Under the pieces are notes generated by a model, which saw nothing but the letters and a program-made list of their open reading frames with translations, ran no database searches and was not told the origin of the DNA. DNA of 64,000 nt from Opitutaceae bacterium EW11 (GTDB lineage: Bacteria > Verrucomicrobiota > Verrucomicrobiia > Opitutales > Opitutaceae): assembly GCA_003054665.1 (NCBI GenBank), contig QAYY01000011.1, forward strand, positions 346,654 to 410,653, in the 5' to 3' direction. Each line of letters begins with the position of its first letter. Positions within the stretch are counted from its first letter, which is position 1. The position numbers and the translations under genes were made by a program. Positions 10,569 through 35,401 of the stretch are shown here, in pieces.

Positions 10569-10588
10569 GTCGTGACGAAGAGTGATTT

Positions 10589-10632
10589 GCCTCCCGGAGG
10601 CAATCGCGGCTTAAGGGCTCCCGCCGGGAGGC
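10589..10632 (-). promoter_or_regulatory. Inverted repeat in the leader of the 7758-10568 gene
   Basis: A perfect 9-bp inverted repeat (10589-10597 and 10624-10632, GCCTCCCGG/CCGGGAGGC) lies 21 nt upstream of the ATG at 10568, in the 115-nt gap after the epimerase gene. No U-tract follows it, so a leader hairpin that affects translation, or a processing site, is more likely than a terminator. Confidence 0.3.
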
Positions 10633-10683
10633 GGCAGGGACGTGAGGTGGATGCCCCTGCGATACCGGTCCGCGAGCTGAAGG

Positions 10684-11658
10684 TCAGTGGCGGGTCTCGT
10701 ACACCCAGCGATTTGCCTCGAGCCACCGGAGTGTCTTCACGATTCCTTGTTCAATCGACAGCTTTGGTTTCCAGCCGGTGTCTTGGATCTTTTTCGTGTC
10801 GAGGAAAATGAACGGATTGTCGCCAATCCAGCCGCGGTCTCCACCCGTGTATCGAATTTCTGGCTGCAATCTCAGCGCACCGCAGATGAAGCGGATGCTA
10901 TCGTTGACTTGTACATACTCGGCGGTTCCGAGATTGTAGATCTGTGTGCGGTGCTTGGCAGCTGCGGCAGTCCCAAGGCGTGTTACGTGAAGGATCGCGT
11001 CGACGCAGTCCTGGACGTAAAGATAGCTCTTACGCTGCGTACCATTACCCAGCACCTTGAGGTGGCCGGGGTGTTCAACCAATTGCTTATAGAAATCGAA
11101 CACGTGGCCGTGCGTGTAGCGCTCACCGAGTATTGAAACGAAACGGAAGATGTATCCCTCGAAGCCGAACCCCTCACCGTAGGCGGAAATCAGACCTTCG
11201 CCGGCGATCTTGGAAGCTCCGTAGAGCGATGTCTGGATTGGGAACGGCGCAGCTTCCGGCGTCGGGATCACTGCTGCTTCACCGTAACACGAACCGGTTG
11301 AAGAGAAACCAATCCGCTTGATGCCGTTGGCGCGCATTGCCTCAAGCACGTTGAACGTGGCAATCGTGTTCTGCTCCAGGTCCTTCTTCGGATGCTCCGT
11401 GCCGAACCGCACGTCAGCATTGGCGGCGAAATGGAAGACGAAATCGCATCCCTTCATTGCGGCTGTGAGTGCCGGCAGATCCAGGTTGTCTCCCCGTACT
11501 AGCTTGAAGTGTGGATTCTTCTGGGCGCTTTCCAGGAAACGCTCCTGCCCGGTGCAGAAGTTGTCCCACCCGACAACTGAGATGCCGTCGACCAGAAGTC
11601 GATCGATGAGGTTTGAACCGATGAATCCGGCTGCGCCGGTCACGAACACGGTGTGCAT
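10684..11658 (-). CDS. NAD-dependent epimerase/dehydratase (UDP-glucose 4-epimerase-like)
   Basis: A 324-residue extended SDR. The cofactor motif GxxGxxG is at 8-14 (TGAAGFIG), 'FHFAANADVR' at about 75-84, a catalytic Ser/Thr region at about 119-123, and the catalytic pair is Y146/K150. The sequence fits the NDP-sugar epimerase/dehydratase group that supplies nucleotide sugars, such as UDP-galactose or UDP-uronate derivatives, for glycosyltransferases. It lies 18 nt after the methyltransferase gene and is likely in the same transcript. Specific substrate not determinable from motifs. Confidence 0.9.
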   Translation of the reverse strand: MHTVFVTGAAGFIGSNLIDRLLVDGISVVGWDNFCTGQERFLESAQKNPHFKLVRGDNLDLPALTAAMKGCDFVFHFAANADVRFGTEHPKKDLEQNTIATFNVLEAMRANGIKRIGFSSTGSCYGEAAVIPTPEAAPFPIQTSLYGASKIAGEGLISAYGEGFGFEGYIFRFVSILGERYTHGHVFDFYKQLVEHPGHLKVLGNGTQRKSYLYVQDCVDAILHVTRLGTAAAAKHRTQIYNLGTAEYVQVNDSIRFICGALRLQPEIRYTGGDRGWIGDNPFIFLDTKKIQDTGWKPKLSIEQGIVKTLRWLEANRWVYETRH

Positions 11659-11676
11659 GGAGAAAGGCGGTGCCCG

Positions 11677-12459
11677 TTAACGGGCAAGGGGCTCCAGTCG
11701 GGGGGTGAGGGCCAGACCAATACAGAGATTGTTGGAGATGAAGGGCAGGAAAGGAAGAGGGAAGAAACTGCGGGCGCGTACTGCGAAGTACGGGTGCAGC
11801 TCTTCCATGATCTCGTGCGGGAGATTGATGTGTTCGCGCTTGTAGAACCACGAGTAGTCGCCGCCGAAATGCTTTTTATAGACTCGTTCGGCGGACATCT
11901 TTCGGGCTAAGGTGTAGGCGAGGCTGCCTTCGGTCGGAATCACGACCAAGAACCGCCCGGTACGTTTATTCAGAAGCCGATGCGCCTCGCGGATCGTTGC
12001 GGGAAGATCGGGAAGATGCTCCAGAACGTGAACCGCGATCACTCGATCGAAGAAGCCGTCGGAGAAGTCCAAACGCTTTTGGCAGTCTCCGACAATTGCG
12101 TTTACTCGGGGAAAGTTCTTGCGGATCTCCGCCGCCATGTTTTCGCGGAGCTCAAGCGCGTAGTAATTCCGTTCCTGTTCCGCAGTAAGCTTCTCGTAGT
12201 GGATGTGCTCACCCAGTCCCGCGCCGATCTCAAGGGTCGTGACGAAATTCGGCTGAGAGTGCCGGACGGGGAAATTGTGGTTGAACGTCTCCACAATCCC
12301 AAAGCGCTTTGGCAGCACTTGGTGCCAGAGCTTCATGAATTCGTCGCTGATGCGCTTCTGCTCTGGGGTGAGCGGCGGAAGCACTTTGGGCCATTTGGCT
12401 GTTTGCATTGCTGTCAAGGGAAGCGGAAAAAGCTGAGACGAAAAGGGTGAAATGACCAT
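11677..12459 (-). CDS. Class I SAM-dependent methyltransferase
   Basis: About 260 residues with a Rossmann-like SAM-binding core. Motif I is 'LEIGAGLGEH', followed by an acidic residue at the end of strand 2, then 'IVGDCQKRLDF' and the post-motif 'DRVIAVHVLEHLPD' typical of class I methyltransferases. The frame extends upstream into the preceding gene, so I start at the ATG at 12459. A Shine-Dalgarno-like AGGAGG abuts that ATG with no spacing, so the next ATG at 12408, where the family-like sequence begins, is a real alternative. It follows the 1067-residue membrane protein by 37 nt and precedes the epimerase. Likely role: methylation of a sugar or lipid-linked glycan. Confidence 0.85.
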   Translation of the reverse strand: MVISPFSSQLFPLPLTAMQTAKWPKVLPPLTPEQKRISDEFMKLWHQVLPKRFGIVETFNHNFPVRHSQPNFVTTLEIGAGLGEHIHYEKLTAEQERNYYALELRENMAAEIRKNFPRVNAIVGDCQKRLDFSDGFFDRVIAVHVLEHLPDLPATIREAHRLLNKRTGRFLVVIPTEGSLAYTLARKMSAERVYKKHFGGDYSWFYKREHINLPHEIMEELHPYFAVRARSFFPLPFLPFISNNLCIGLALTPRLEPLAR

Positions 12460-12496
12460 CCTCCTGCCGCCCGGGCAAGCACGGTCTTTGGTGCCA

Positions 12497-15400
12497 TCAC
12501 TGACTGGCGGGCGGTTTGGTCTGTCTGGACTTTCTGATGATCGTGCCGGTAAAGACAGATTCACAGGTCGAGATGCCGATTTTGTTCTCGCCGAGCTGGA
12601 GTGTTGCCGTGGCCGTCGAATGTGTGGGTTGATCCCAAGCAAAAGCTTCGCGTCCATCGAGCCAGACTCGGGTGGCTGACTCGATTCCTGTCAGGGGTTG
12701 ATTCTCGAAAAGCGAGCCCATCGAAATCCAGAGTTCGTGCTCAATGGACAGGTCGACCTTGATCGGTGGAGAACTCGGGCCTCCAATTCCCCAATGATCT
12801 GCGCCAATCGATATCGTGTCTGGGCCCAGGTATTTTACGTACACCGCATCCCCAGCACCGGTCATTCCGGTTACGATGAGCGGTTCCGCGTGCCCCTGCC
12901 GATCGGTTGGAAAACGGACACGAAGTCGGATGGGGCCATCTCCAGGAATGATCGCGGGCTTCCAGACCGGAATAAGAGGCACTGTGGCGACATCGCCCGT
13001 TGCCGCGTTTTTCCACGGCTCGAGCCGCCAGCGAGCTGATTCTTTGTCCACAGTCGAATGCCGCCAAACGATTTCGCCGTCTTTCCGAAGCCGGTATTCT
13101 GACTTTCCCTCTTCAAGGACGAATCCCAGTGGAACCCGATCGCTGACACCGATCAGGGTGGTGCTTTCGCGACCGTCTTCGCTCCTCCAGATCAACTCTG
13201 CGTCTCTGTGGTCCCGTCGCCTGACGGAGAGTGTGCCATTCGAATTTCGGCTAACCAGCGAGAGGATTGGGATACGGTCTGAGTTATTCGGCAGAAAGAA
13301 CGCGGGCAGTTGAGTCTCCGCCACGGAGGGCACGGGAATGTAGGATAGTCGGAGCGTCTCTCCACCGAAAACATGTCGAGCCGGCCCTCGCTTCTGTGTG
13401 TTGGACAGAGGGACGATTTCGATCCGTGAGTCATCTTTTCTGGAAGAACCACAACTCCACACCTGTGCCCCATCCACCCAGATACGGTAGCCCGGATTCC
13501 CTCCCGGTTTGGCCGCCCCAATCGGTTCGACACTGATCGCATGGGGCACTTCGTACACCACTTCAACAGGCGCGGAAGTCTCATCCACGCCGGGAGATGA
13601 GTGCACGAAGCGCACGTAAGTCGGCTTGGAGTACTCAATCGAGATCATCTCCGTTTCCATCCCAAGCCCAATGGATGCGATTGGCTCCATTGTTCCATAC
13701 CTGTCGCGCGGAAGCAGCAGTTGAGCTTCGAAGACTCTATCAGTGGACCTACGTTCGGCCAACCAGTCGACAGACGGTCGGGAGACTTGAGCTTCAGAGA
13801 GAACACCCCCGAATTCGGGGGCTGTCCAGATTACCCGATCTCGTTTGCCCCACACGATCCGGCTTGGCGGGATTGAGTAGCACGGCACCTGAAGATTCAG
13901 GCATTGTTTGCCATCCAATCTCACTACGACTCGGTTCTGCAGCTGCTGCTGTTCGGCCTCGGGTCGGTCTTTCCACCACGGATGGTCGAGAGGCGGATAG
14001 AATGCCCCAACTTCAAGATCCATCTTCATGGGTTTGCCGGGGGTGTACGTGAACGCCGGCCCGGGCAGGTCTCCGTAGGGATGATGTTCGAAGATGAACC
14101 GCGCGGTCCCCGGGCTGAGATACTGGACCAGAAGCGCGTCGGCTTCTTCATAGATTCCAGCCACAAAAACCGGTTCTGTTGTACCAGCTGCTCGAGTGGC
14201 TGGGAACGTGATGTCGAGGGAGCGAGCCCCTGGAGGCTCGGCGAAGTGCGACAGGATGGGCCAGGCAGCTCGGTCAAACCGCCGTGCGATCGCGGTATAG
14301 TCGTTCCGATGACGGTCTCTCAGCCATCCATGCGAATGCAGGCTGGCGAAAAAGTTGAATGCCGCTCCTACGAGCAGGGTCGAGATGCTGGCCGTAGTGA
14401 CCATACGCGACAGCCAACTCCGCCGTGTGCCGAACAACGATACGGTTAGGGTCACCAATCCCAGAAGCACAGGCTGGAAGTCCAACATGTACCGGTTGGC
14501 TCGAACGCCTGCTGCAGCCATCGGCGCGGCCGCGACGGCGAACCAGACCGCAGTAAAAACAAAGGCCGCGCTGGATGCACTGCCAGGTATCAGTTTCTTC
14601 CATCGCCAGACTACCGCGGCGAGCAGCGCCACGACTAACGGACCCATGTACGCCTGGCCATGCGCCTGCTCGTAGCTCCAATATTGGGCCGGACGAACGA
14701 TGTCTGGCACCGGAGCGACGAATGGGAAATATGGATACAACTGTGGCTTGGCGAAATAGTAGTACCTCAGGTTGTGCCACACCCACGAGACGGAGAACAT
14801 CTTGGGCGGCATCCCGTTCACTTGGAATCTGAAGCCGAACTCGAGAGGGTGCCCGAATCGGGCGAAATTGTAGCCCAGGAGTCCAATCAGAATCGCGGTG
14901 GCGGGGAATCCGGCAAACAGCCAGGGCTGCAAGAGCGCCCAGCGATTGCGCGCTCCGTTTTTCCAATTCTGGTGCGTGCACCACGCGGCCAATACCGGCA
15001 ACAGAATCAGGAGTGGAAGCAGCGTACCGCGTGAGGCCCCAGCCATCCCAATGGCGAATCCAGCCAGTGAAAGCCATCTACCCTTGTGCGTTTTGTGGAA
15101 GAGCGCTTGGGTGCAAGCGAGAAGCCCAACCATGCTCCAAAAGTAGCCGGAGCTTGCAGCGACCTCGTAGAAAAGTGAGCGGCGTAGCGTTGGGAGCGCG
15201 CCTGTACAGAGACCCATCGCAAGAACCAAGACGGACCAGATCCATACCGGTGTGCTGGGCGCGGCGTGCCGCTTCCAAGTAGCCACCCATGCCACGCTGG
15301 TCCAAAAACCAAGAACGACAAAAAGGAGGGCGACAAACGGTTCGTTGGGGTAGGCGCCGGTGAGAAGAAAAACCGGCATGAAGATCGCGAGGATAGGGGC

Positions 15401-15702: not shown

Positions 15703-16659
15703 TTAGAACCGTCGAGCTGGATGGACGTCCGGGGAAAACCCTTCGGACCGATCCACGATGAACTTCGGGCGGGCGCGCACCTCTTCGTAGATACGGCCGA
15801 TATACTCGCCCAGGATGCCGACGCTGATCAGTTGGATGCCGCCCATGAAGAGGACGAGAATGACGATGGTGGGATTGCCAAGCGGGAACGGGAAATTCGC
15901 CAGCTTCATCACGAGGTAAACCAGCGCGATGAGAAACGACAGGCCGGCCATGAAGAATCCGAACTGCGTGCTCAACGTGAGGGCGTAGGTGGAGAAACAG
16001 AAGATCCCGTTGAAACCAATGCGCAGCGAACCGAGAAACCGGTTGTAGTTCGTTTCGCCGGCGAAGCGCGGCGGGCGGTCGAAGGGAATGATGATCTGCT
16101 TGAAGCCGACGACCGCGACCATGCCGCGGAGAAAGCCATGGCTCTCCTTCAGCTTCACGACTTCCGCCACCACCCGGCGCGACATCAGCCGAAAGTCGCC
16201 CGTATTCGGCGGAATCTTCACGTCGGCGATCTTGTTGATGACGTTGTACCCGGTCCGGGCCACCAACTTCTTCAACCAGGGTTCACCTGTCCGTTGCCGC
16301 CGCTGCGGAAGCACCACGTCGTAGCCTTCGCGCCATTTCTCGATCATCTGTCCCACCAGTTCGGGAGGATCCTGCATGTCGACGTCCATCACGATGACGG
16401 CATCGCCGGTGGAGTAGGTGAGCCCAGCCAGGGTGGCCATGGGTTGCCCGAACCGACGCGAGAACCTCAGCAGCTTGATCCGCTCGTCCTTCGCGCGTTC
16501 TTCCAGGATCACCTCCTCGGTCCGGTCGGGTGAGGGATCGAGCGAAAAGATCAGTTCGTAGTCTTCGGTAATGGCGGAAAGAAGAGGACGAATCCGCCGA
16601 AGGAATTCGGGGATGTTTTTCTCTTCCTTGTAGACCGGAACGACGATGCTGAGGAGCAT
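15703..16659 (-). CDS. Membrane-anchored family 2 glycosyltransferase (GtrB/DPM1-like)
   Basis: 318 residues from the ATG at 16659; the frame runs 30 codons further upstream, but family similarity starts at 'MLLSIVVPVYKEEKN'. The GT-A core carries D-V-D at about 92-94 within 'MDVDMQDPPE'. Two C-terminal membrane spans lie at about 235-255 and 265-290, followed by 'GEYIGRIYEEVRARP', as in GtrB-type enzymes. These transfer a sugar from a nucleotide donor to undecaprenyl phosphate at the inner face of the membrane. The product would be the natural donor for the GT-C-like 1067-residue protein encoded 2 nt downstream, which supports a donor/transferase pair. Confidence 0.9.
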   Translation of the reverse strand: MLLSIVVPVYKEEKNIPEFLRRIRPLLSAITEDYELIFSLDPSPDRTEEVILEERAKDERIKLLRFSRRFGQPMATLAGLTYSTGDAVIVMDVDMQDPPELVGQMIEKWREGYDVVLPQRRQRTGEPWLKKLVARTGYNVINKIADVKIPPNTGDFRLMSRRVVAEVVKLKESHGFLRGMVAVVGFKQIIIPFDRPPRFAGETNYNRFLGSLRIGFNGIFCFSTYALTLSTQFGFFMAGLSFLIALVYLVMKLANFPFPLGNPTIVILVLFMGGIQLISVGILGEYIGRIYEEVRARPKFIVDRSEGFSPDVHPARRF

Positions 16660-16773
16660 GGTGCGAAGTGGGAGGGACAAGTCATGAGGGGAATCCGGAC
16701 GAGACTCCAGAAAATCGTTGAGGCGGGTCCGCGCGAAGCCATCCCGCATAGGCGGTGGGTTTGGCCAACAAGC

Positions 16774-16825: not shown

Positions 16826-19800
16826 CTACTCGAAATCGATGTTGACGATTCGGAACGACCGCGACCGCGTATCCGGCGAAGCCAGCGGGTAGCTCTGATC
16901 GGCGCTCAAGGCCAACTTGGTTTCTTCGACGTCCGAGAGCGGGACGACAAACCTCTCGGTTTTGTCCAGTTGAAGTGAACGTGTCTCGATCTTGCCTGCC
17001 GCTTCCACCGTGAGCGGCAGATCGCTGCGGGCAGGGAAACGAACCACCTCGACGTAGGCTTTGCGGAAACGCTCCGTCGCGGGGAAGGTGAACGAGACGC
17101 GGCGGTCCACCCAACCGTCCGTATCCGCGCGATCAATGCCGAAACGATAGCCCGAGGGATGCCAGCCGCGCGCAAACAGGTCCGAGCGGCTGACGTTTTC
17201 GAACGAGATATTCTTCACCAGGAGCGAACGTTCACGGGTGTCTCCGGTGATGGTGAACACACCATCGGCCTCGAGTTGGACGTCGTTCTTGGTCGCCGGA
17301 ATCAGAGGGAGATACAGGGTCCGGTAGTTCGCTTTCGGAATATTCAGTGTCTCGTACGGCTTGCCGTTCAGACTGACCCGGACGGTGGCCTTGGGCAGGC
17401 TGGCCCAGCCGGGCATCTCGAAATCGAGTTTGAGGACCTTGAAATCGTCGAACGCCGGAGTGGCGATCGAAGCCTTCTGCGCGAGCCAGCCGTCCTCGTC
17501 CATCCCTGTCAGCGTCGCTTTCTCACCCTTCGGGTTCGCGAGTTGGCCGAAACCGGAAAGGTCGGTTTGGTCGTCGATGGCGATTTCGCGAACAAAGGCG
17601 GAGACGGAGCGCTTGTCCTCCTTCTCGTCGTACACTCGGGCCCCGGAGAAGTGCATCGAGATGCTCGTGATGTTGGTCGCCTCCGTGATCAGGCGGGTGA
17701 GTTTGAACTCGCCGCTCTTCAGGTGGACGACCTCGGTCGGCTTGTCGTTGATCGAGACTGTCAGATCGACGCCGTCCTTCTGAAACTCCGGCAGGTCGGG
17801 AACGAAACCTTTGAAGGTGAGAACCTGGCCGGGATGCGACGGGCCCATCTTGAAATAGGCGTCCTGTCCGATCCATCCGTCCTCGAACAACCCGGAGTAT
17901 TCGAGTCCTGGGTACTTCGAAAGATCCCACGGGAAGCTGGAGATGCGGGTCGGGCGCGGCAGCGCCTGATACTGCTCGTCGGTGATGACCGAAATATCGC
18001 GCGTGAAACCGACGAGGCGGCGGTCATCCAGGTTGTACTTGTTGCCGTAGAGCCGCATCAGCCCGGTCTTTTCCTTCGCGATGGGCGCGGCCTTCTCGTT
18101 GAAGTCGACTGTGATGTAGGCCTGCTGTTCGAAGTACTCCGGCTTGATGATGGGCGACACGACGCGCGCGGAACCGTGGCCGACGAAGGGAAGCTTGTAG
18201 TCGTCTTCGCCGATCACCACCGCGTGGTCCGGCAGCTTCGAGCGACCGTAGCCCAGCGACGTGCAGGTGAAGTCGATCATCACACGCAGCTTTGGCGACG
18301 GGTGGATGATCTGGAACAGGTTGTACCGGCCCGTGCCGTGGAAATAGACTTTTTTGTGCGTGATCGGCTCGGGCTCGCGCTGGAAGAATGCCGCCTTGAA
18401 ACGAGCAGAGGAGTAATAGTGTGGGCTCAGTTCCGAGTGGATGAAGACCAGCCGGTCCTTCAGTTCGCTCTCGAGCTTGTACTGGTACATGTTCTCGTAC
18501 CGCCAGCCCGTGCCCGGGTTCGCCTTGTTGAAGTGGTCGAGATCCGCACGCACCGCCACGAACAGCCGGTCGCCGTAGCTGAGGTGGCGAGAACTGGTTT
18601 CCGTCCAATTGTTGTCCAGCTTCTGGATCGACATCACTCGGTAATCGGGGACGTCGCCCTTCATCAGCTCGTCGGGGAGGAGGAACCGCAACATCGCGAG
18701 TTTCTCGATGATACGCGCTTGCGGGCCGAGGTCGGGATCGGGCGTCCGCAGGAACTTCAACACCGCGATATTGGCGATGTTGTCCATGTAGCTGCGGGAG
18801 AGGAAACGCGTGTCGATGCCCTGCGTGTACTGCGAAAGCATCTTTGCCGTGACGACGTTGCTGATATCGCTCTCGATGCCGCCGTACTTCAGATCCTTCG
18901 GAGGCGTGAAGCGGACGCCCAGTTCGGAGGCGCCCACAACTTCGGTGAGGCCGCCGCCGTACGTGCCGAGGGACGCGTAGGAGTAGTAGACGTGCGACGG
19001 GATCGTGCAGGCGATGTAGATGCCCATCACGACGGCGCCCTTGCGCGGCGAGTAGCGTGCCATCAGCCAGGCGAAGCCTTGGGCGAGGAACAGTGTGACG
19101 ACCGGCTGGGCGAACATCGCCAGCTTGAACAAGCCGAAGTCCTGGCCCTTGAAGAAGAGGAAGAACCCGAGCGGGAACATGACTGCCGCCAGGTACCCGA
19201 CGGGCGAGTTCTGCATCACGTTCGAGAAGGCGCGGGCAAGAAGGTAGACGAGAAGCACGCTGCCGACGACGATCTGGATCGAGATCAGCGGATCGATGCC
19301 GACGACGCCGAAGGGGTGGAGACCGACGAGCATCGGGATGAACGAAGGCACCAGAGTCCACGGGAACAGCACCAAGCCGCCGGCCTGATCGTTGATTTCG
19401 GTCATCGCACCCAGGCCGGCGGAGCCGACCGACTGCATGACCAGCGTATTCACGAACTCATACGTGCTCGTTCCGAGAAAGAGGAACGTGAGCACTGCGG
19501 CGCCGACGATGAACAGCGCGTAGCCCTTGAGCTTTGCCGTGGCGGTATAACGCAGCCGGACGGCGAAGAGGAGAATCGAAAGCGCGACGAAGGGCGAGAC
19601 CTCGGGGTAGAGAATGCCGAGGCAGCAGGTCAGGATGCCTGCCAGCACCAGCTTTCTCGGATTGAGCGAGCGGGTGGTCAGCAGCACCGACGAGGTGGCG
19701 AGGAGAAGAGCGATACCGCCCACCTGGGCGATGAGCTGGTAGAGCGTGCCCAGTCCGAAGAGGGGGCTCATCGCGAAGAGGGCGCATCCGAGGAGCGCGA

Positions 19801-20449
19801 TCTTGCGGTGGCGGCCGCGGTAGACCGCCGCGGCGCCCAGGGCGAAGATCTGAAGCATGCTGAGCATCAGGATCGCCGGCATGAAAACCTCGTGAGGATT
19901 GAGGCCGGTCAGGGAGGAGACCCACGACACCGTCAGCTCCGAACCGGGCCGGATCTGCTGCAGCGCGTGCATGTACCAGTAGTGCTGCGCGTAGTCCGAT
20001 CCCTCGAGCTGGGTTTGCAGCGGGATGTCGTAGTAGCCGTGGTTTAGGAAACGATCGGCGGCCAGACAGTAGTTGGCCATGTCGTCGTTGCCGTACGAAA
20101 TCCAGTTGAAGCCGAAGCGCAGCAGCGGCCAGCCGGTGTAAAGCAGGTAACCGCAGACGATGAGGAAGAACGGCGCCAGTTTCCGCCACGGAAGCTTCGG
20201 TCTCCGCCAGACAAATACAGCCGCCGCCGCCAGGCCCAACGCGACGGTCAGCCAGGGGCCGAACGTCCGGACCGGGATGCCCCACACATTCAGCCGCGTC
20301 ATGATCGAGACGAGCAGCGCCAGACCGACGGTGGGCGCGATGAACCAGCTCCAGAGCAGCCCTTGGCGCGGCTTGAGCGCGCTGACGACTGCCTGACCGA
20401 TGAAGGTCAAGTAGAGGAAGAGGCCGATAACGAGCAGGATGGCGATCAT
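16826..20449 (-). CDS. Very large membrane protein with three C-terminal beta repeats
   Basis: 1207 residues. The N-terminal 1-500 region is polytopic, with about twelve spans and a 'NDDMANYCLAADR' loop (about 121-133) that could hold an acidic catalytic site. A mixed extracytoplasmic region (about 510-845) follows, then three tandem beta modules (about 846-960, 978-1085, 1100-1207). Each has 'DGW' near its start (857-859, 986-988, 1111-1113) and ends in an 'RS-x-x-x-V-x-x-I' strand. The architecture suggests a GT-C-like transferase or related surface-glycan enzyme with sugar-binding modules; no biochemical assignment is possible. The gene lies about 100 nt downstream of the double glycosyltransferase gene. 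Confidence 0.75.
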   Translation of the reverse strand: MIAILLVIGLFLYLTFIGQAVVSALKPRQGLLWSWFIAPTVGLALLVSIMTRLNVWGIPVRTFGPWLTVALGLAAAAVFVWRRPKLPWRKLAPFFLIVCGYLLYTGWPLLRFGFNWISYGNDDMANYCLAADRFLNHGYYDIPLQTQLEGSDYAQHYWYMHALQQIRPGSELTVSWVSSLTGLNPHEVFMPAILMLSMLQIFALGAAAVYRGRHRKIALLGCALFAMSPLFGLGTLYQLIAQVGGIALLLATSSVLLTTRSLNPRKLVLAGILTCCLGILYPEVSPFVALSILLFAVRLRYTATAKLKGYALFIVGAAVLTFLFLGTSTYEFVNTLVMQSVGSAGLGAMTEINDQAGGLVLFPWTLVPSFIPMLVGLHPFGVVGIDPLISIQIVVGSVLLVYLLARAFSNVMQNSPVGYLAAVMFPLGFFLFFKGQDFGLFKLAMFAQPVVTLFLAQGFAWLMARYSPRKGAVVMGIYIACTIPSHVYYSYASLGTYGGGLTEVVGASELGVRFTPPKDLKYGGIESDISNVVTAKMLSQYTQGIDTRFLSRSYMDNIANIAVLKFLRTPDPDLGPQARIIEKLAMLRFLLPDELMKGDVPDYRVMSIQKLDNNWTETSSRHLSYGDRLFVAVRADLDHFNKANPGTGWRYENMYQYKLESELKDRLVFIHSELSPHYYSSARFKAAFFQREPEPITHKKVYFHGTGRYNLFQIIHPSPKLRVMIDFTCTSLGYGRSKLPDHAVVIGEDDYKLPFVGHGSARVVSPIIKPEYFEQQAYITVDFNEKAAPIAKEKTGLMRLYGNKYNLDDRRLVGFTRDISVITDEQYQALPRPTRISSFPWDLSKYPGLEYSGLFEDGWIGQDAYFKMGPSHPGQVLTFKGFVPDLPEFQKDGVDLTVSINDKPTEVVHLKSGEFKLTRLITEATNITSISMHFSGARVYDEKEDKRSVSAFVREIAIDDQTDLSGFGQLANPKGEKATLTGMDEDGWLAQKASIATPAFDDFKVLKLDFEMPGWASLPKATVRVSLNGKPYETLNIPKANYRTLYLPLIPATKNDVQLEADGVFTITGDTRERSLLVKNISFENVSRSDLFARGWHPSGYRFGIDRADTDGWVDRRVSFTFPATERFRKAYVEVVRFPARSDLPLTVEAAGKIETRSLQLDKTERFVVPLSDVEETKLALSADQSYPLASPDTRSRSFRIVNIDFE

Positions 20450-20553: not shown

Positions 20554-23547
20554 TCAATACCGGATGCCCATGGCGGCCAACCGGGCGGTGAGCGCGCCGG
20601 TGAACCGCGCTTTCCGGGCATAGTGGTTGATCGTCTGAAAATCGCTGTGCCGGTCGCCGTGAAACCGGCTGCGGATCTTGATCATCTCCTCGTTGCCCAC
20701 CGTGTGAATCTGCTGGCTTGTCTTCTGTTCGCGGTGAACGCGGAAGCAACCCAGGAAGTAGGGGACGCGGACGATCTTGGCGTTCGACTGCTGGAAACGC
20801 GCCAGCAGATCCCAATCGAGGGCGAACTGGAATGAGGGATCGATACCGCCGGCCTTGTCCCAAATCCGCTTCCGCCAGAAGAGGGTTTCCTGGGGAACGT
20901 AGTCGATCCATTCGAGTGTCTTGGGATCGTGGGGCGGCATGATCCACCGGCCGACTTCACGATCCTCGCCGTCGATGATGATCCGATGACCGTAGATCGC
21001 GTCGACGTCCGGATGCTTCGCGAAGTATTCCGCGACGTACCGCAGCGCTCGAGGGGAGATGAAATCGTCGGAATTGAGCCACGCCATCACATCGTCGGGT
21101 CCGAGGTCGTTCTTCAGATGCTCGAAGCCTTTCCGGACGGCGTCGGCCTGGCCTTTGTCGCGGACCGATTCCCAATGGTGCAGGCGGTCCGCGTAGCGCG
21201 CGACGATCTGCGGGGTGGCGTCCTTCGAACCGCCGTCCTGGACCACGTAGTAGAGGTGGGGATACTTCTGGTTCAGCACGCTGAGCATCGTGCTCTCGAT
21301 GAACGCAGCCTGCCCGTACGAGGGCGTGACGATCGCGACCTTAGGCAGCTTCTCAGGACGGAGCCTCGGGGAGGGAAACTTATCCCATTTGATCGGGCGC
21401 GGCTCGTAGTGCTGCAGCACGCCGATCTGCATCCAGTAGTCCTCCACCACTTTCTTGAAGAGCCAGTCGTTGAACGGATCCCAGTACTTCAGCTGGCAGT
21501 GTTTTTTGGCGGCGAGCCAGAGCTTGTTCAGACGCCCCATCGGTGCGGCGGCGTCCATCGCGAGCTGACGGATCACGGCTTCGCGCTCCACGCAGGCGCG
21601 GTGCAGGTTCTGGATGACCGCTTCCTTCTGAGCCAGGAGCTTGGTGAAAAACTTGACCTGCTCCAGCGCGGCGTATCCAGCCGCATAGTTCGACACCGAG
21701 TCGCGGAGCGACTGGATTTCGAGATCTTTCGCCGCCACCAATGCCTCAATGTTCCGAATGTGGGTATCGCGGTCGCTGAACAGCTGGGACCACCGTTCGG
21801 CGTCGGGAGGCAGCTTGGCCAAGATGTCGGCCAGGCGCTTGTTTTCGGTCCCGACATTGGCGATGTGAGCGTCTTTGTCGGCAATCACCGTGCTGAGCTG
21901 GGCGACGGTCGTCTGGAAGTTCTTGATATGTCCGTCCTGCTGGATGATCAGCTGCTCGCGCTCGTTGCAGATCTGTTTGAGCGACGCGATCTCCGCGTCC
22001 TTGGTGTCGGCTTCGGCTTTGAGCTCGGCGATCTCCGCGTCCTTCTCCGCGCATTCCGCCTCGAGTTCGGCCTTGATCGCCTCCATCTCCTGCTTCCGTT
22101 CCTCGGCGGCGCGTTTGAGTCCGGCGATCTCCGAATCCTTCACGTCGGCCGCGTGCTTCAGGCTGCCGATCTCATGGTCCTTCGCGTTCGACTCCTGCTT
22201 GAGGGAGGCGATCTCGTGGTCCTTGGTGTCGGCTTCGCGCTTCAGGGAGACGATTTCGGTGTCCTTGATGTCGGCTTCGCGCTTCAGCTCCTCGATCTTG
22301 TGCTGGCGTTCGACCCGGTCCGTCTGGAGCGCGGCATAGCGCGGCGTGACTGCGTCGATGAAGCGCAGCGTCTCCGCCGAAACGTTTTTCGCCTCCTGGA
22401 CGTGGTCCAGCGGGCCTCGGCGGCTGAGCAGCAGCTCGATCCCCGCGATCACGTCGGCCGTCCGGATCAGCTTCACGCAGGGCGCATCTCCGAAGCGGCA
22501 GTCCCAATTGCACCCGAAGCAGGGGAGTGGTTGGACGACGGATACGGTTCGTTCGCCCACCGGTTTGAAACGCGGCCAGTGTCCGCCGCCGAAGATTCCG
22601 ACGACCGAACGCCCCACCGCCGCCGCAATGTGCATCGCCCCCGTGTCGTGGCCGACATACATCAGCGATTCCGCCAGCAACGCCGCCAAGAGCGGGATCT
22701 CGCCATCGCGGCCCAGCCAAATCGCAGGTGTTTGACCTCCGCGGTGGCGGAGTTCGGTCGTGACGTCATCGATCAGCGCCTGCTCGGAAACGTGCCCCAG
22801 CATCAGGACGGGCAGCTTCTTTTCGCGCTGAAGCCAGAGGATCAACTCCGCGAAATTCGGATTCGGCCACGCCTTGATGGACACGTTGGCGAGTCCACAC
22901 GGGAAAAGCGCGATGAACTGGCCCAGCGGGAGCTTTTTCTCCGCCAGGAACCGCCGTGCTTTCTCCGTCGCTTCGGCTGGAACCGTGAGTTGCGGCGCGG
23001 AACGCGATATCGGTTGCGCGAGGAGGTGATCGACGAGCCGGTGATTGTTGTCCCAATCGAGCTTTCGCTCATCCGCCGGCACGATCTCGTTGAAGGCGGT
23101 CGACCATTCGACGCCGAGTTCCAGTTTGAGCGTGTTGACGAAATGAGGATCGACCGCGCGCCGACCGAGCACGACACGTCTCGCGGCGGGGAAATGCGTG
23201 GCGATCGCGACCTCCAACCATGTGCGGTTCAGCGTCGCCGCTACGACAATGTCCGGCCGAAGCTCGTCGAGCTTGTCGAACGTCGATGCGAGCGCATCGC
23301 GGGAGGCCCCGGGCTGCTGCGTGAAAGGGTTGATCGGCACCACCAGCCACTCCGTTTTTGGGGAAAACAGGGGCGCCAGGGCGTCGTATCCGGGCCGGAC
23401 CAGCATCGTATGGCGGGCGTCGGGCCACGCCGCCTGGAGTTGGGCCAAGGCGGAGGAGAATATCACCAGGTCGCCAAGGGTGTCGGGGCGGATGTAGACG
23501 ATGCTTTTCGGCTGATCGGGCACAGAAAAACGTCCACGTGAAGACAA
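20554..23547 (-). CDS. Bifunctional glycosyltransferase: GT9 domain, long coiled coil, GT2 domain
   Basis: 997 residues in three parts. Residues 16-375 match GT9/ADP-heptose:LPS heptosyltransferases ('IRPDTLGDLVIFSSAL' at 20-35, 'GHDTGAMHIAAAVG' at 299-312, and a four-Cys cluster at about 343-357). Residues 404-660 are a predicted coiled coil containing 14-residue repeats of the pattern L-K-x-x-A-D-x-K-D-x-E-I-x-S. Residues 734-960 are a GT2 domain ('VTPSYGQAAFIESTMLSVLNQ-' type opening, D-G-G-S, and N-S-D-D at 825-828). The start is uncertain: a TTG at 23547 or a GTG at 23523. The enzyme is presumably cytosolic and acts on lipid-linked or core oligosaccharide. Confidence 0.88.
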   Translation of the reverse strand: MSSRGRFSVPDQPKSIVYIRPDTLGDLVIFSSALAQLQAAWPDARHTMLVRPGYDALAPLFSPKTEWLVVPINPFTQQPGASRDALASTFDKLDELRPDIVVAATLNRTWLEVAIATHFPAARRVVLGRRAVDPHFVNTLKLELGVEWSTAFNEIVPADERKLDWDNNHRLVDHLLAQPISRSAPQLTVPAEATEKARRFLAEKKLPLGQFIALFPCGLANVSIKAWPNPNFAELILWLQREKKLPVLMLGHVSEQALIDDVTTELRHRGGQTPAIWLGRDGEIPLLAALLAESLMYVGHDTGAMHIAAAVGRSVVGIFGGGHWPRFKPVGERTVSVVQPLPCFGCNWDCRFGDAPCVKLIRTADVIAGIELLLSRRGPLDHVQEAKNVSAETLRFIDAVTPRYAALQTDRVERQHKIEELKREADIKDTEIVSLKREADTKDHEIASLKQESNAKDHEIGSLKHAADVKDSEIAGLKRAAEERKQEMEAIKAELEAECAEKDAEIAELKAEADTKDAEIASLKQICNEREQLIIQQDGHIKNFQTTVAQLSTVIADKDAHIANVGTENKRLADILAKLPPDAERWSQLFSDRDTHIRNIEALVAAKDLEIQSLRDSVSNYAAGYAALEQVKFFTKLLAQKEAVIQNLHRACVEREAVIRQLAMDAAAPMGRLNKLWLAAKKHCQLKYWDPFNDWLFKKVVEDYWMQIGVLQHYEPRPIKWDKFPSPRLRPEKLPKVAIVTPSYGQAAFIESTMLSVLNQKYPHLYYVVQDGGSKDATPQIVARYADRLHHWESVRDKGQADAVRKGFEHLKNDLGPDDVMAWLNSDDFISPRALRYVAEYFAKHPDVDAIYGHRIIIDGEDREVGRWIMPPHDPKTLEWIDYVPQETLFWRKRIWDKAGGIDPSFQFALDWDLLARFQQSNAKIVRVPYFLGCFRVHREQKTSQQIHTVGNEEMIKIRSRFHGDRHSDFQTINHYARKARFTGALTARLAAMGIRY
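21975..22296 (-). repeat. Imperfect 42-bp tandem repeats encoding the coiled-coil linker
   Basis: Within the double glycosyltransferase gene, six near-identical 14-codon units begin at residues 421, 435, 449, 463, 477 and 491, with a further unit at 509 and a partial one at 523; an extra four residues break the period at 491-508. Units at the 421 and 435 positions are the most alike. Such arrays can vary in copy number by slippage. Confidence 0.7.
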
Positions 23548-26567: not shown

Positions 26568-28325
26568 ATGCCCCGCTCCTTTCAAGACTGGGTCCACTGG
26601 CTGGAACTCGGCCCGGGCGCGCAATGGATCCGCCGCCTCGCGCTCATGCTGGGCGTGCTGATCCTCTCCACGCTGATCGGCTACAAGCAGTTTCGCGGGC
26701 CGCAGACCGAGGTCACGCTGGCGCAGGCGGTGGTGGGGCGGCAGCTGGCGGACGGAAACGGATACACGACGCTGGTCAACTACCCGCAGTCGGCGGCGTG
26801 GCTCCAGGCGCATGGACAGCGGTGGAGCACGAAGCCGTTCCCGGAGCTCCATTCTGCGCCGCTTTACCCGCTGGCGATCGCAGCCGCGCTCAAACTGATT
26901 CCGACGTCGTTCCGTAGCTACTTCTTCGATACGGCTCTGGCGCCGCCCGACGGCTTCATGCCCGATTATCTCCTGCTGGGCCTGAACGTGGCGCTTTTCT
27001 GGATCGCCGCCATGCAGACGTTTCGGCTCGGAGTCGCGCTCTTCGATCGGACGGTGGCGTGGACCGCCGTCGGCGGACTGATGCTTTCGGCGCCGGTGTG
27101 GGCGCAAACCGTGGCGGTCAACGGGACGCCGCTGACGATGGTGCTGCTTTTGGCCGCAGTGCAGCTCTGCGTCCGGGTGGATCGCGGAGTCAGCGAACAG
27201 GCTGTGCCGATCTTCAGCCTGCTCGCCTTGGGTGTGGTTTGCGGGCTTCTGTTTCTCGCCGATTATGCGGCGGGATTGGCTGCGATCCCGGTGGTGGTCT
27301 TTGTCTGGCTCTCGTTCGCCGGCGAGCGGTGGAAGGCGATGTCGGCGGTGATCGCGGGATTCCTTCTGATCGCAAGTCCCTGGTGCACGTTCATGATCGC
27401 CCGCACCGGCAGTCCGGTCGGCCTTGCGTGGCAGGACGTGGCTCTGAAGCCGGACGGGACGGCGGCGGATCCCGCCGTGGTGAAGGCGACGCTCTCCGCT
27501 TCGGCGCCCGCGATCGACTTGGCCAAACTCTCGAACAAGGGGCTCACCCGCCTCCAGTCGGCCGTGCAGCAGCATCTCTGGACCGGCGGAGGCATGTTGT
27601 TCACGGCCTTTTTTGTGGCGGGGTTTCTCTATCGATTCCGCGACCCGCGAGTCGGCCGTCTCCGGATGGTGTTCCTCGGCCTGCTCGTCACGCTGCTCTT
27701 GGCCAACGCGTTTCTCGATTCGGGCACGGGCGAGCGGCAACCTCTCGCCGTCGCCGCGCCGCTGATCGTCCTCTTTGGCGCCGGGTTTTGTGCTGTGTTG
27801 ATCGCGAGCAACGATCAGCTGGCGCCGTACGCGCGTTGGGTGCTCGCCGCAGTGCTGGCCCTCCAGGCCGTTCCGCTGGCGAAAGACGCTCTCGAGCCGC
27901 GCCGGATCCATTTCCAGTACCCGCCGTACTATCCGGCGCTGTTTATCGGCATGCGCGACGAGATGCTGCGCCGCGGCGGCGATAATCCCGGGTGGATGGC
28001 CGACGTGCCGGCGGGCGCCGCTTGGTACAGCGGGCTTCGCGTCTGGGCGCAACCGGCGAGTCTGCGGGAATTCTACACGATCGGCGTCGATCAGCCGATG
28101 ATCGCCCTCGTGCTCTCGCCGAAGACGCTGGATCGCCCTTATTTTTCCGAGCTTGGCCGCAAACCGGACGTGGCTACCGCGCGTTTCGGCGACTGGTACG
28201 ACGTGTATTCGAGTCTTGTTACAGGAAAACCCGCCCCGGGTTTTCCGCTTAGTCTGCCGCAGAAGATCGCGGACAATTTCTACGTCCTCATCGATCCGCT
28301 CGCCCAGCCGTACCGGCGAAAGTAA
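26568..28325 (+). CDS. Polytopic membrane protein, GT39/ArnT-like
   Basis: 585 residues. An N-terminal span (about 24-42) is followed by a periplasmic loop with 'GNGYTTLVNYP' and 'HSAPLYPL', a layout seen in ArnT/PMT-like GT-C enzymes. About nine further spans follow, then a soluble C-terminal ~150 residues containing 'PAGAAWYSGLRVWAQP'. The family usually transfers sugars from lipid carriers on the outer face of the cytoplasmic membrane. It lies 107 nt after the NtrC-type regulator and upstream of an outer-membrane barrel and a Wzc-type kinase, pointing to exopolysaccharide assembly. Specific substrate unknown. Confidence 0.75.
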   Translation: MPRSFQDWVHWLELGPGAQWIRRLALMLGVLILSTLIGYKQFRGPQTEVTLAQAVVGRQLADGNGYTTLVNYPQSAAWLQAHGQRWSTKPFPELHSAPLYPLAIAAALKLIPTSFRSYFFDTALAPPDGFMPDYLLLGLNVALFWIAAMQTFRLGVALFDRTVAWTAVGGLMLSAPVWAQTVAVNGTPLTMVLLLAAVQLCVRVDRGVSEQAVPIFSLLALGVVCGLLFLADYAAGLAAIPVVVFVWLSFAGERWKAMSAVIAGFLLIASPWCTFMIARTGSPVGLAWQDVALKPDGTAADPAVVKATLSASAPAIDLAKLSNKGLTRLQSAVQQHLWTGGGMLFTAFFVAGFLYRFRDPRVGRLRMVFLGLLVTLLLANAFLDSGTGERQPLAVAAPLIVLFGAGFCAVLIASNDQLAPYARWVLAAVLALQAVPLAKDALEPRRIHFQYPPYYPALFIGMRDEMLRRGGDNPGWMADVPAGAAWYSGLRVWAQPASLREFYTIGVDQPMIALVLSPKTLDRPYFSELGRKPDVATARFGDWYDVYSSLVTGKPAPGFPLSLPQKIADNFYVLIDPLAQPYRRK

Positions 28326-28367
28326 TTGCCCGCCGTGGCCGCCAAAACCAGCTTCCGCCCATCGCTC

Positions 28368-29555
28368 ATGCTGAAGAACGGGCGCCTGTTTCTCCCTGTG
28401 CTCCTCCTCGTCGCCGTCCCGGTCGTGCGGGCGGTTTACGCGCCGATTCCGACCCAGGAGCAGGGGAAGGCGCTGACGGTTTACCTCGGCGGCGGAGCGT
28501 ACTACGACACGAACATCTTCGGCGCCGCCTCCGGCGAAATCGACAGTCTCGTCTGCCAGTTCCTGCCCAGCCTCGCGTTCAACGCCTCCGTCGGAAAACA
28601 GACCTTCGCCTCGGCCGCCTACCGCGCTTCGCTGGACTATATCGCGAACCGCCCCGGCAAGAAGCTCCTCGACAGCCACGAACTCGCGGCGCGTCTCGCG
28701 CACACGTTCAACCCCGAGAGCGAAATCGACCTGAGCGATTCTTATCAGATTTCCAAGAACCCCGAGTCGCTTCTCCCCGGAGTCGGCACGATCAGCGGCG
28801 ACCAGTCCTACCGGCGCAATCAGCTCGATGCGCGGTTCTCCCTCGGCCTCACCCGTCGGACCGGCCTCCTTTTCAAGATGCGCCAAAGCACGATGGCGTA
28901 CGAAGAGTCGCGGCTCGGCGACGAACTCGATCGCAGCGAGTGGACCGCCGGCGTCACGGCCGGGCACTCGCTGCTCCCCACGCTCAAGGCCTCCGCCGAA
29001 TACCGGTATCAGCGAATCGATTACTGGACCAGCGGCTGGTTCAAGGACAAGCAGTCCCATTTTCTCCTCGCCGGCACCGACTGGGCGCTCAACAGCCGTG
29101 TCGCCGCGAGCGTGCGCATCGGCGCCGAATACCGCATGCGCCGGAGCGCCCACGATATTGCGACGCCGTACGCCGAGATCGGCGTGAAACGCGATTACGC
29201 CAAGGATTCCTTCGTTTCCGTCGGCTACAGCTACTCTCTGGAGGAGACGTCCGGCGTGCAGCGGTTCACCGACGTCGCCGTCAACCGTCTGTTCGTCAAC
29301 TGGCAGCATGTGCTGACTCCGAAGCTCGTCGGTTCGGCTCTGGTCGATTGGGATCCGTCCATTCTCCAGGGCAGGCCGGGAGTGAGCCCGAATCGAAACG
29401 AAACGAATACGCGTATTGGGCTCACCCTGACGTACCGCGTTCTCGCAAATTGGTCGCTTTCATCGAGCCTCGACATCGATCGAATCCGCTCCGACGAGCC
29501 TGGGCGCGGATTATCCCGCGAGCGGGTGGGGGTGTCGGCCCGCTACGCGTTCTAG
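28368..29555 (+). CDS. Outer-membrane beta-barrel protein (BBP2-like)
   Basis: 395 residues from the ATG at 28368; a longer frame begins at a TTG at 28326. A signal peptide is clear (basic start, hydrophobic 'LFLPVLLLVAVPVV', Ala-rich cleavage region near residue 20). The mature chain is made of alternating amphipathic beta strands and ends '...SARYAF', the C-terminal aromatic residue recognised by the BAM machinery. It resembles barrels that accompany exopolysaccharide export loci and sits directly upstream of the Wzc-type kinase. A role as an exopolysaccharide outer-membrane component is inferred from context. Confidence 0.82.
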   Translation: MLKNGRLFLPVLLLVAVPVVRAVYAPIPTQEQGKALTVYLGGGAYYDTNIFGAASGEIDSLVCQFLPSLAFNASVGKQTFASAAYRASLDYIANRPGKKLLDSHELAARLAHTFNPESEIDLSDSYQISKNPESLLPGVGTISGDQSYRRNQLDARFSLGLTRRTGLLFKMRQSTMAYEESRLGDELDRSEWTAGVTAGHSLLPTLKASAEYRYQRIDYWTSGWFKDKQSHFLLAGTDWALNSRVAASVRIGAEYRMRRSAHDIATPYAEIGVKRDYAKDSFVSVGYSYSLEETSGVQRFTDVAVNRLFVNWQHVLTPKLVGSALVDWDPSILQGRPGVSPNRNETNTRIGLTLTYRVLANWSLSSSLDIDRIRSDEPGRGLSRERVGVSARYAF

Positions 29556-29727
29556 CGGCGGACAACGCCGGCCGGTCCGCCCGTGGCCGTCCCTGGTTGT
29601 CGACGGCCTGTCAACGAAGCGGCAGCCACGCGGGCACAGCGCGGGCGCCGCCAATGCCTATGCGCTTTTCCCAGGGCACAAAGAGCTTGCTGCTGGACGA
29701 GGCGCGAAGTTCGCTCGTCGCGGTTCA

Positions 29728-31917
29728 ATGGCATCCACCCACGCCAGCCGCGAAGGCGCATCGCTCGCCGATTTCTTTCAGCTGCTTCGTCTGCGGAAGG
29801 CGCTGATTTTTCTGATCCTTAGTCTGGTCGTGGTCACGACTGCGGTGGTTACCGCGCTGATGCCGAAGTGGTACGTGTCGACGTTGAACGTGCGGGTGGA
29901 AAAACCGGAAGGGGAGGTGAAGCTTTTCCAGAATCAGCAGTCGGCGTATTACGATCCGTATTTTCTGCAGGATCAGTTCAAGATCATGCAGTCGGCCAAG
30001 ATCCTGTACCCGGTGATCGAGCGACTGCAGCTGAACGAAAAGCTGGCGGCTTCTCAGGGGAGCAGCGTCCCTCTGCCGACCGACGTCACATACCTTCTTC
30101 TCGTCAACAAGATGATCCGCATCGAAACGCCGCGCGGTTCGTCGTTGATCGAGATCGAGGTTTCCGCGCAAGACCCGGCGTTGGCGGCGGCGATCGCCAA
30201 CGAGATCGGCACCGCGTATTCGGCGGACCGGATTGATTTCGCGACGTCGCAGCAGCGCGAGGGGCTGGCCCAGCTGCGGAAAGAACTCGAGAAGCAGGAA
30301 AAGGTGGTCACAAGCCAGCGCGACTTGGTCGAAAAGCTGCGGAAGGATTTGAACATCTCCGGCGTCGATTTGAGCGCGCGCTACAGCGACATGGAGGTGG
30401 AGACGCTACGCCAGATGCAGAATTCGCTCATCGCGCTGAGCGTCGACGCGATCGGCCGCAAGACCCGTTACGAACGGTTCAAGAGCATCCCTCCCGAGGA
30501 GCGGCTCAACCTCGTCAACTCCGAGCTGATCCAGGACCCGAACATCCAGAATCTCCTCCAGGCCTATCTGGTCGCCGATCAGAACGTCGCCAAGCTGAAG
30601 ACCCGTCTCGGCGAGGCGCACCCGGAGCTGATCGCGGCGATGGAGAACCGGGCGAAAATCAGGGAGCAGCTGGACGGACAGCTGCGTGGTTACGAAAACG
30701 CCCTCGAGATCGCCTACAAGGAAGCCGATGCGCGTGTGGCGGAACTCAAGAACCAGCTCGGCCAGGCCAAGGTGGACCAGATCCTCTCCGCCCGGGAACG
30801 CATGCGACCGTTCGAAGAGGCGCTGCAGAAACTCGAGGACGACACGCGCCTGCTCTCCACCACGAAGCTCACGCTGCGTCAGCGCGAAATCGATTTCCAG
30901 GTGCCGAAGCGCACGATCGAGATCCTGAACGTCGCCGAACCCGCCCGCCGGGCCTCGCGGCCGAACTGGTCTCTGAATCTCGTTTTTGCCGTGCTGTTCG
31001 GCACCATTCTCGGAGTCGGCACGGCGGTGTTGGTGGAGTATTTCGACACCAGCTTCCGCAATGTCGCAGAAGTTGAGGCGCGCCTCCAGCGCCCCGTCCT
31101 CGGTGTGATTCCCAACGCTCCGGATCCTCTGAAAAAAGACGCAGCCGGCGAAGATCCGGCGGAGCTCGAGCCGTTTCGCGTCCTCCACACCAATCTCAAT
31201 CTTGCGCTCAAGAGCGACGCCCGTGGCCGCACGCTGATCTTACTTTCCGCAGGTCCCGGCGAAGGCAAATCGACCACGCTCCTCCGATTGGCCCGCGCGA
31301 TGGCCAAGGCAGGGGAACGCGTTCTCCTGATCGACTCCGACCTCCGGCGGCCGACCCAGCACCAGCTTGCCGGACTCCGCAAGGAACCCGGCTTGGCCGA
31401 AGTGCTCCAAGGCAAGGCGACGCTGCAGTCGGTCACCCAGCGCGAGATCCAGCCCAACTTCGATTTCATCCCCTGCGGATCGGTCGGGTCGTTTTCGCTC
31501 ACCCTGCTTTACGTCGACCGTCTCAAGGCGCTCATCCAGGAACTGCGCGGCCAGTACGACCGGATCGTATTCGACGCTCCTCCGATCATCGGTGTGAGCG
31601 ACGCCTCCGTCCTCGCCAGCGTGATGGACGACGTGCTGCTGCTCGTGCAGCACCGGCGAAATCCGCAGAGCATGGTGATGCGCGCGCAGCAGATCATCGA
31701 AGGCCTCGGAAAAACGATCGTGGGCATCGTGCTCAACCGCGTGCCCCGCAATTCGGGCGAGGACTACGGGTATTACACCCACAACTACGCCTACTACAGT
31801 TCGCACGGTCGCCGTCGTTCGCGCCGTTCGCGTCGGGACGACGCCGACGGCGAGAGCGATTCGCGCGGAGACCGCATCGAGTACGTCGAACGCGAGCGCC
31901 GTCGCAGCAAGGAGTAA
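29728..31917 (+). CDS. Polysaccharide co-polymerase / tyrosine autokinase (Wzc-like)
   Basis: 729 residues. A Wzz-type chain-length domain lies between two spans (about 26-45 and 417-436), with long coiled-coil helices in the periplasmic part. The cytosolic BY-kinase has Walker A GPGEGKST at 509-516, Walker A' 'LLIDSDLRRP' at 533-542 and Walker B 'VFDAPP' at 614-619. A Tyr cluster (residues 680, 682, 683, 687, 689, 690) follows, which is the autophosphorylation tail. Unlike many Wzc proteins it then continues with ~35 strongly basic and acidic residues. It controls polymer length and export of exopolysaccharide or capsule. Confidence 0.93.
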   Translation: MASTHASREGASLADFFQLLRLRKALIFLILSLVVVTTAVVTALMPKWYVSTLNVRVEKPEGEVKLFQNQQSAYYDPYFLQDQFKIMQSAKILYPVIERLQLNEKLAASQGSSVPLPTDVTYLLLVNKMIRIETPRGSSLIEIEVSAQDPALAAAIANEIGTAYSADRIDFATSQQREGLAQLRKELEKQEKVVTSQRDLVEKLRKDLNISGVDLSARYSDMEVETLRQMQNSLIALSVDAIGRKTRYERFKSIPPEERLNLVNSELIQDPNIQNLLQAYLVADQNVAKLKTRLGEAHPELIAAMENRAKIREQLDGQLRGYENALEIAYKEADARVAELKNQLGQAKVDQILSARERMRPFEEALQKLEDDTRLLSTTKLTLRQREIDFQVPKRTIEILNVAEPARRASRPNWSLNLVFAVLFGTILGVGTAVLVEYFDTSFRNVAEVEARLQRPVLGVIPNAPDPLKKDAAGEDPAELEPFRVLHTNLNLALKSDARGRTLILLSAGPGEGKSTTLLRLARAMAKAGERVLLIDSDLRRPTQHQLAGLRKEPGLAEVLQGKATLQSVTQREIQPNFDFIPCGSVGSFSLTLLYVDRLKALIQELRGQYDRIVFDAPPIIGVSDASVLASVMDDVLLLVQHRRNPQSMVMRAQQIIEGLGKTIVGIVLNRVPRNSGEDYGYYTHNYAYYSSHGRRRSRRSRRDDADGESDSRGDRIEYVERERRRSKE

Positions 31918-32521: not shown

Positions 32522-33012
32522 CGATCACCAGCCCCCGGTCAGGCCCCGAAACGCCCCCTCCAAATGTGCTTATTGGTGTGTTCAGTGTGCTCAGAGGTGT
32601 GTCCCAAAACGAAGTAGGTGGGACGTGATCGGAGCTGGACGCCTCCGCTTCGCCTTGGCTGACCAATACCATCCAGCAACACAGCCCGGGGCCCGTGCTT
32701 TCGACTCCATCGTACCGGCTTCACGCCGACGACGGCAAATGACGGCAACCGCGCCGCCCCTCCTGCACCCGGGGCCGCCGCGCCGCAGGCCCGTGTAGCG
32801 AATCGCTCCATACACGACTGCGCGATGGATCGGCGCGGATGGATGCGTAAGGCTGAGCGTTGCTGTGCGTTTGTTTTGTTGGGTCTTTCATCCATATGCC
32901 CGTTGAGCTTGCCTCGCGCTTGGCGCACCAATTCTGCGCAACAGCGTGTTTGCATCGGTGACTTGCAGGCCGCCATGGTGGAGATCCGGCTGCCTTGGAG
33001 CAGCGGCCTTTA
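32522..33012. other. Non-coding stretch between attL-like repeat and the island operon
   Basis: About 490 nt with no gene I can support. Minus-strand frames here are Arg/Pro/Ala-rich and resemble no family. Nothing resembling an integrase gene remains, although this is where one would be expected. The promoter of the operon that starts at 33013 should lie here, but I could not fix its boxes. Confidence 0.5.
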
Positions 33013-35364: not shown

Positions 35365-35401
35365 AGCGAATCACCGTTTTTCAGCGACCTGAGACGGGAC
35401 A

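Follow-up and report, generated by a model that had tools for sequence, protein, structure and literature searches.

A conserved GT9-coiled coil-GT2 protein of Opitutaceae as a candidate chain-length ruler for a surface polysaccharide

The protein and its locus

The 64,000-nucleotide stretch of DNA that was analyzed (the window) encodes a protein in which a GT9 domain, a helical rod of ~277 residues and a GT2 domain follow one another from the N-terminus. Coordinates of this gene, its parts and its conserved neighbors are collected in Table 1. Both transferase domains scored above their Pfam cut-offs, GT9 (PF01075) with 59 bits against 22 and GT2 with 70 bits against 23.3. Using AlphaFold with a 24-row alignment, the N-terminal end was modeled as a GT9-type (GT-B) fold and a GT-A domain was found to begin at residue 735, while Foldseek matched the GT9 domain to structures 3tov, 1psw and 2h1h/2gt1 and the GT2 domain to WrtF and the K4 chondroitin polymerase. 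Alignment of 24 relatives demonstrated that D26, K225, E255, D301-T302-G303 and H306 of the GT9 domain are invariant or nearly so; K225 and D301 line up with WaaF residues, and D26, E255 and H306 are conserved. Profile score, GT-B fold and catalytic motifs all place the N-terminal domain in the GT9 family. Its scores against the NCBIfam equivalogs for LPS heptosyltransferases I, II and III (~30-54 bits) were far short of their cut-offs of 134-185. The C-terminus carries a single GT2 only. A hydrophobic segment that could serve as a membrane anchor was sought in the protein and none was seen, nor was there a strong amphipathic helix, the hydrophobic moment of helix 671-702 being unremarkable. 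A sequence-only reading of this DNA had proposed a GT9 and a GT2 joined by a linker, and Pfam, AlphaFold and Foldseek all bore this out.

Table 1. Positions in the window of the GT9-coiled coil-GT2 gene, its parts and its conserved neighbors
Feature	Position	Strand	Remarks
Nucleotide-sugar epimerase/dehydratase	10684..11658	-	Conserved in relatives' loci
SAM methyltransferase	11677..12657	-	Conserved in many relatives' loci
Polyprenyl-phosphate-type GT2	15703..16749	-	PgfS/ArnC-like as best NCBIfam match, below cut-off; conserved neighbor
1207-aa protein	16826..20449	-	~12 hydrophobic segments in N-terminal 456 residues; immediate neighbor in nearly all relatives
GT9-coiled coil-GT2 protein	20554..23547	-	997 aa, TTG start; ORF call, Pfam, AlphaFold
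GT2 (GT-A) domain	20728..21345	-	Residues ~735-940; DGGS and NSDD motifs; Pfam, Foldseek
Conserved segment linking rod to GT2	21439..21633	-	Residues 639-703, AQKEAV to YWMQ; contains helix 671-702
Helical rod (predicted coiled coil)	21547..22377	-	Residues 391-667; AlphaFold
Array of degenerate 42-bp/14-residue units	21977..22298	-	7 copies; KDxEIxxLKxExxx
GT9 (heptosyltransferase-family, GT-B) domain	22414..23514	-	Residues ~12-378; Pfam, Foldseek, alignment

Helices were predicted at residues 391-467, 476-576, 581-667 and 671-702 (AlphaFold, 24-row alignment), and the rod would measure ~41 nm if unbroken, with breaks around 468-475 and 577-580; model confidence over the rod was moderate (pLDDT ~41-71). 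The linker had earlier been put at ~255 residues, and it proved to be present and slightly longer than that. The tandem 14-residue units encoded by 42-bp repeats, also proposed from the sequence, are real: the seven copies are 62-76% identical to a reference copy and lie at a spacing of 42, with one of 54, and TRF found two period-42 arrays. The 14-residue array covers less than half of the rod. A hypermutable or phase-variable repeat is unlikely in the window, since DNA copies of such low identity are old and diverged. Hydrophobicity periodicity at 3.5 was weak in single rod segments, and over the whole rod the observed value was reached by 29 of 2000 shuffles. The segment that follows the rod, from AQKEAV to YWMQ, is 65 residues long in 22 of the 24 relatives and 62 and 64 in the other two.

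Downstream of the gene, the window and its relatives have a common set consisting of a membrane protein of 1207-1219 residues, a polyprenyl-phosphate-type GT2, a methyltransferase and an epimerase. Two further groups of genes were observed on the forward strand. A divergent exopolysaccharide module (26568-31917) encodes a membrane protein, an EpsL-like outer-membrane protein and a Wzz-tyrosine-kinase fusion, and a possible RNA-repair set (32995-36139) comprises two RlaP-type nucleotidyltransferases around an ORF of no assigned family, followed by an R2K ATP-grasp protein.

Left of the window, a separate stretch of the same genome (L066; G000:C3:327000-346900, positions 9199-13122 and 3545-7465) encodes a transaldolase, an SIS isomerase, a nucleotidyltransferase and a GHMP kinase, a set reminiscent of a nucleotide-heptose pathway, and these adjoin a 1306-aa GT4-GT2-GT2 protein. 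The GHMP kinase recurs near relatives (L068, L072, L127). Genes like gmhA, hddA and hddC occur to the left of the window and also close to relatives, with the SIS, GHMP kinase and nucleotidyltransferase proteins all below NCBIfam cut-offs. On the basis of these heptose-nucleotide-like genes, a heptose donor for the GT9 domain is plausible but unproven.

Spread of the family and variation in rod length

The sequence-only reading had suggested a search for this domain order in related genomes. In a collection with one genome per species, many members of the family to which the window belongs proved to encode GT9-rod-GT2 relatives, and the order was kept across Opitutaceae (Verrucomicrobiota). 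Both ends were conserved and the GT9 and GT2 motifs were invariant among the 24 aligned proteins. Named records with the full architecture came from Opitutaceae/Opitutae of Verrucomicrobiota, and partial matches were present in three Acidobacteria.

The rods of the 24 relatives ranged from 130 to 330 residues, a 2.5-fold variation which corresponds to lengths of 19-49 nm if each residue adds 0.1485 nm. Length differences in classes 0, 3 and 4 modulo 7 preserve a coiled-coil core by way of heptads and stutters. Gaps of at least 3 residues were counted in protein pairs at least 55% identical, which share ancestry so that the counts are not independent; multiples of 7 accounted for 265 of 612 linker gaps (43%) versus 16 of 180 (9%) in the GT domains, and classes 0, 3 and 4 held 82% of linker indels as against 42% of the GT-domain indels in these pairs.

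Close pairs of relatives displayed individual steps of this kind. L042 and L043, with 95% identity outside the linker, differed by two gaps of 7 (14 residues apart), and a single 7-residue difference separated L039 from L042. The rods of L047 and L048 differed by two gaps of 7, those of L045 and L048 by one gap of 7 with a further residue outside the rod, and those of L046 and L050 by a gap of 3. When L051 was compared with either L046 or L048, one gap of 46 residues was observed, which matches in length the 138-bp units repeated in tandem in L048 and L052. These 138-bp units are 85-86% identical and the 147-bp units (49 residues) of the Acidobacteria locus L056 reach 95% matches, both being more homogeneous than the repeat in the window. 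In L056 the units lie in a GT9-rod protein at positions 8614-11217, and their similarity suggests a recent expansion of that rod. In a tree of the GT domains the length changes of the closest pairs fell on separate branches. The shortest step commonly seen between the rods of relatives was 7 residues rather than 14. The recent change between L042 and L043 lies beyond the 14-residue array, which is therefore just one of the sources from which length differences arise. Taken together, the alignments support a linker which behaves as a coiled coil varying by register-keeping steps.

Exporter genes and exchange of the distal module

In 11 relatives (L038, L040, L041, L043, L045, L046, L048, L049, L051, L053 and L074) Wzm and Wzt, the latter with a Wzt_C domain, were encoded just upstream of the GT9-rod-GT2 gene, usually accompanied by a methyltransferase (MT) or sulfotransferase-methyltransferase (ST-MT). 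No exporter was present in the stretches covered around the gene in a more distant clade, where Wzt_C was found 12-17 kb off on the same contig in four of six genomes. Within the window there was no ABC exporter gene beside the GT9-rod-GT2 gene. The genome does contain an orthologous Wzm-Wzt-MT trio alone on another contig (C1), with identities of 50% for Wzm, 68-69% for Wzt and ~60% for MT. This orphan trio (L090, G000:C1, 3791-7197) is followed by a protein-kinase-like ORF and an rpoN-like gene. Because the protein of the window nests among exporter-linked relatives in the tree, we infer that the Wzm-Wzt operon was split in its lineage.

The Wzt ATPase domain was 57-80% identical across modifier classes. 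Identity of the Wzt C-domain was 42-47% between the MT and ST-MT classes versus 57-99% within classes, and 20-31% in comparison with an FkbM locus. L040 and L041 have GT domains 95-97% identical and rods of equal length, but Wzt C-domains only 46% identical, an apparent swap of the exporter cassette; the matching methyltransferase of L041 was not found in the 5.3 kb of sequence covered. This pair, together with the pattern of C-domain identity, indicates that the reading domain of the exporter tracks the modifying genes and not GT9. With the GT domains alike and the C-domains unlike, GT9 alone does not set the exported end, and the end signal probably involves more than GT9. A GT9-added sugar that is later methylated or sulfated would fit.

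The distal module itself is exchanged among loci. L091 (G058) carries an FkbM methyltransferase-rod-GT2 protein in a Wzm-Wzt operon of the same order, and in the syntenic exporter operon of L123 (G447) the same slot is occupied by a methyltransferase and a second N-terminal domain, then rod and GT2. A kinase identity was considered for this second domain on account of an aminoglycoside-phosphotransferase-type-like motif, but was set aside, as Pfam and PDB sequence searches were empty; its single-sequence model (pLDDT 37) was unusable. L021 (G068) bears a Rossmann-like N-terminal module on a homologous rod, with rod and GT2 54% identical to those of the window, and this module had no convincing match in Pfam or PDB. 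Two Acidobacteria loci (L055/L056) encode a separate GT9-rod protein followed by a GT4-GT2 protein, where GT4 was assigned by reading and not by Pfam. GT2 paralogues of 446 residues (L028-L037) were rejected as rod-bearing relatives, since they lack a rod and their N-terminal domain is of a different ("RGWCF...") type. With L068:5093-6517, they represent widespread Opitutaceae proteins with the same GT2 domain and the RGWCF-motif domain in place of the rod.

The sequence-only reading would have been contradicted by an invariant repeat number unrelated to any polymer, or by a linker predicted not to form a coiled coil. Neither was found in this comparison of one genome per species, given the conserved order, the register-keeping length variation and the exporter linkage in relatives.

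Proposed function and comparison with known systems

By analogy with characterized systems, we consider there to be an even chance that this is a terminator-ruler-polymerase protein of an ABC-transporter-dependent, O-antigen-like surface polysaccharide, with GT9 in the terminator slot; the slot is assigned from the position of GT9, the exporter linkage and the exchange for methyltransferases. It would be a membrane-proximal assembly protein, presumably oligomeric, on the plan of WbbB and Klebsiella O7 ORF6. Its C-terminal GT2 and partner GTs would extend a lipid-linked chain, and the coiled coil would hold the N-terminal GT9 module ~40 nm away, such that GT9 could reach only chains long enough for the distal end and there add the last (or penultimate) sugar. 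The chain end may then be modified by a partner methyltransferase or sulfo-methyltransferase, with the Wzt C-terminal domain reading the modified end and exporting the chain. Modal chain length would follow from rod length, which evolves in steps of whole heptads or coil units. More tentatively, we extend this to the phylum: GT9 may terminate chains in a series of one-protein rulers of Verrucomicrobiota, ~19-49 nm long, with length tuned by heptads or 46-49-residue coil units and with interchangeable terminator heads.

Of the alternatives, a bifunctional transferase forming two linkages of one glycan, whose coil only oligomerizes and tethers the two GTs near the membrane and is constrained in register without measuring the chain, is possible though rather unlikely. 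The 2.5-fold variation in rod length would be expected if length were near-neutral apart from register, GT9 stays while the end-reading domain of the exporter changes (L040/L041), and coiled coils of known systems also act as scaffolds (PMC11231755). Replacement of the distal module by methyltransferases in syntenic exporter operons, however, fits end modification better than chain building, and a rod of ~40 nm is long for simple tethering. We regard as improbable a role for GT9 at the chain start, in which it would add an adaptor or core heptose-type sugar and GT2 the next residue, making this an initiation or adaptor enzyme with a purely structural rod. WaaC and WaaF, the best-known GT9 enzymes and structural matches of this domain, do assemble the inner core of LPS, and the gmhA-, hddA- and hddC-like genes agree with such a role, but the heptosyltransferase equivalogs match far below cut-off, and relatives which lack GT9 keep the same operon with methyltransferases in that position. 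A chance fusion through a low-complexity linker, with repeats that are drift or a disordered spacer of no coiled-coil structure or function, is very improbable, as the degenerate array, moderate pLDDT and weak single-segment periodicity which it would explain are outweighed by the continuous helix prediction, indels in register-keeping classes, the near-fixed 65-residue segment and conservation through the family.

The coiled-coil ruler model has so far rested on a few enterobacterial systems; under the terminator-ruler-polymerase reading, the GT9-rod-GT2 family would extend it to another phylum and give the terminator slot to another family of transferases. Relatives such as L042 and L043, with whole-heptad rod differences and nearly the same catalytic domains, offer a natural experiment on rod length versus polymer length, and a code between glycan end and exporter becomes testable where end modules are exchanged and Wzt C-domain classes match them.

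In WbdD, WbbB and O7 ORF6, as described in PMC11231755, chains built at one end of a coiled coil are capped by a terminator at its distal end, and the WbdD structure (PMC3482155) is a precedent. In the protein of the window, likewise, a modeled coiled coil separates a distal catalytic module at the N-terminus from a C-terminal GT. The sequence-only reading had suggested a ruler and two transferases in a single polypeptide, an architecture not known to it as described. The order, the coiled-coil-like linker and the ABC exporter of relatives agree with the first part; the second does not hold, since PMC11231755 presents WbbB (K. pneumoniae O12) and ORF6 of O7 as single polypeptides with terminator, coiled coil and two GTs. 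WbbB (Klebsiella pneumoniae O12/Raoultella terrigena) resembles the protein of the window in that one polypeptide joins a glycosyltransferase at the N-terminus, through an extended coiled coil, to GT activity at the C-terminus, and in its ABC-dependent pathway; it differs in carrying GT99 (the beta-Kdo terminator), GT102 and GT103, whereas by both Pfam and fold the modules of the protein of the window are GT9 and a single GT2. K. pneumoniae O7 ORF6 has the same succession of distal N-terminal module, coiled coil and C-terminal GT2, and its methyltransferase is resembled by that of L123, whereas it bears an N-terminal methyltransferase-kinase with a CBM and two GT2 modules. WbdD/WbdA (E. coli O9a/K. 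pneumoniae O3) also place a coiled-coil ruler between terminator and polymerase, although there the methyltransferase-kinase WbdD and the polymerase WbdA are separate proteins; the split GT9-rod and GT4-GT2 layout of the Acidobacteria loci resembles this pair. WaaC and WaaF share the fold and the conserved GD, K and D-T-G-xx-H motifs with the GT9 of the window, which is unlike them in its equivalog scores and its fusion to a coiled coil. A literature search on GT9 or Opitutaceae with coiled coils found nothing relevant. The architecture is therefore a real, conserved and evolving one of a known mechanistic kind, in which, as far as the literature searched shows, GT9 as the head module and the presence in this phylum appear to be new.
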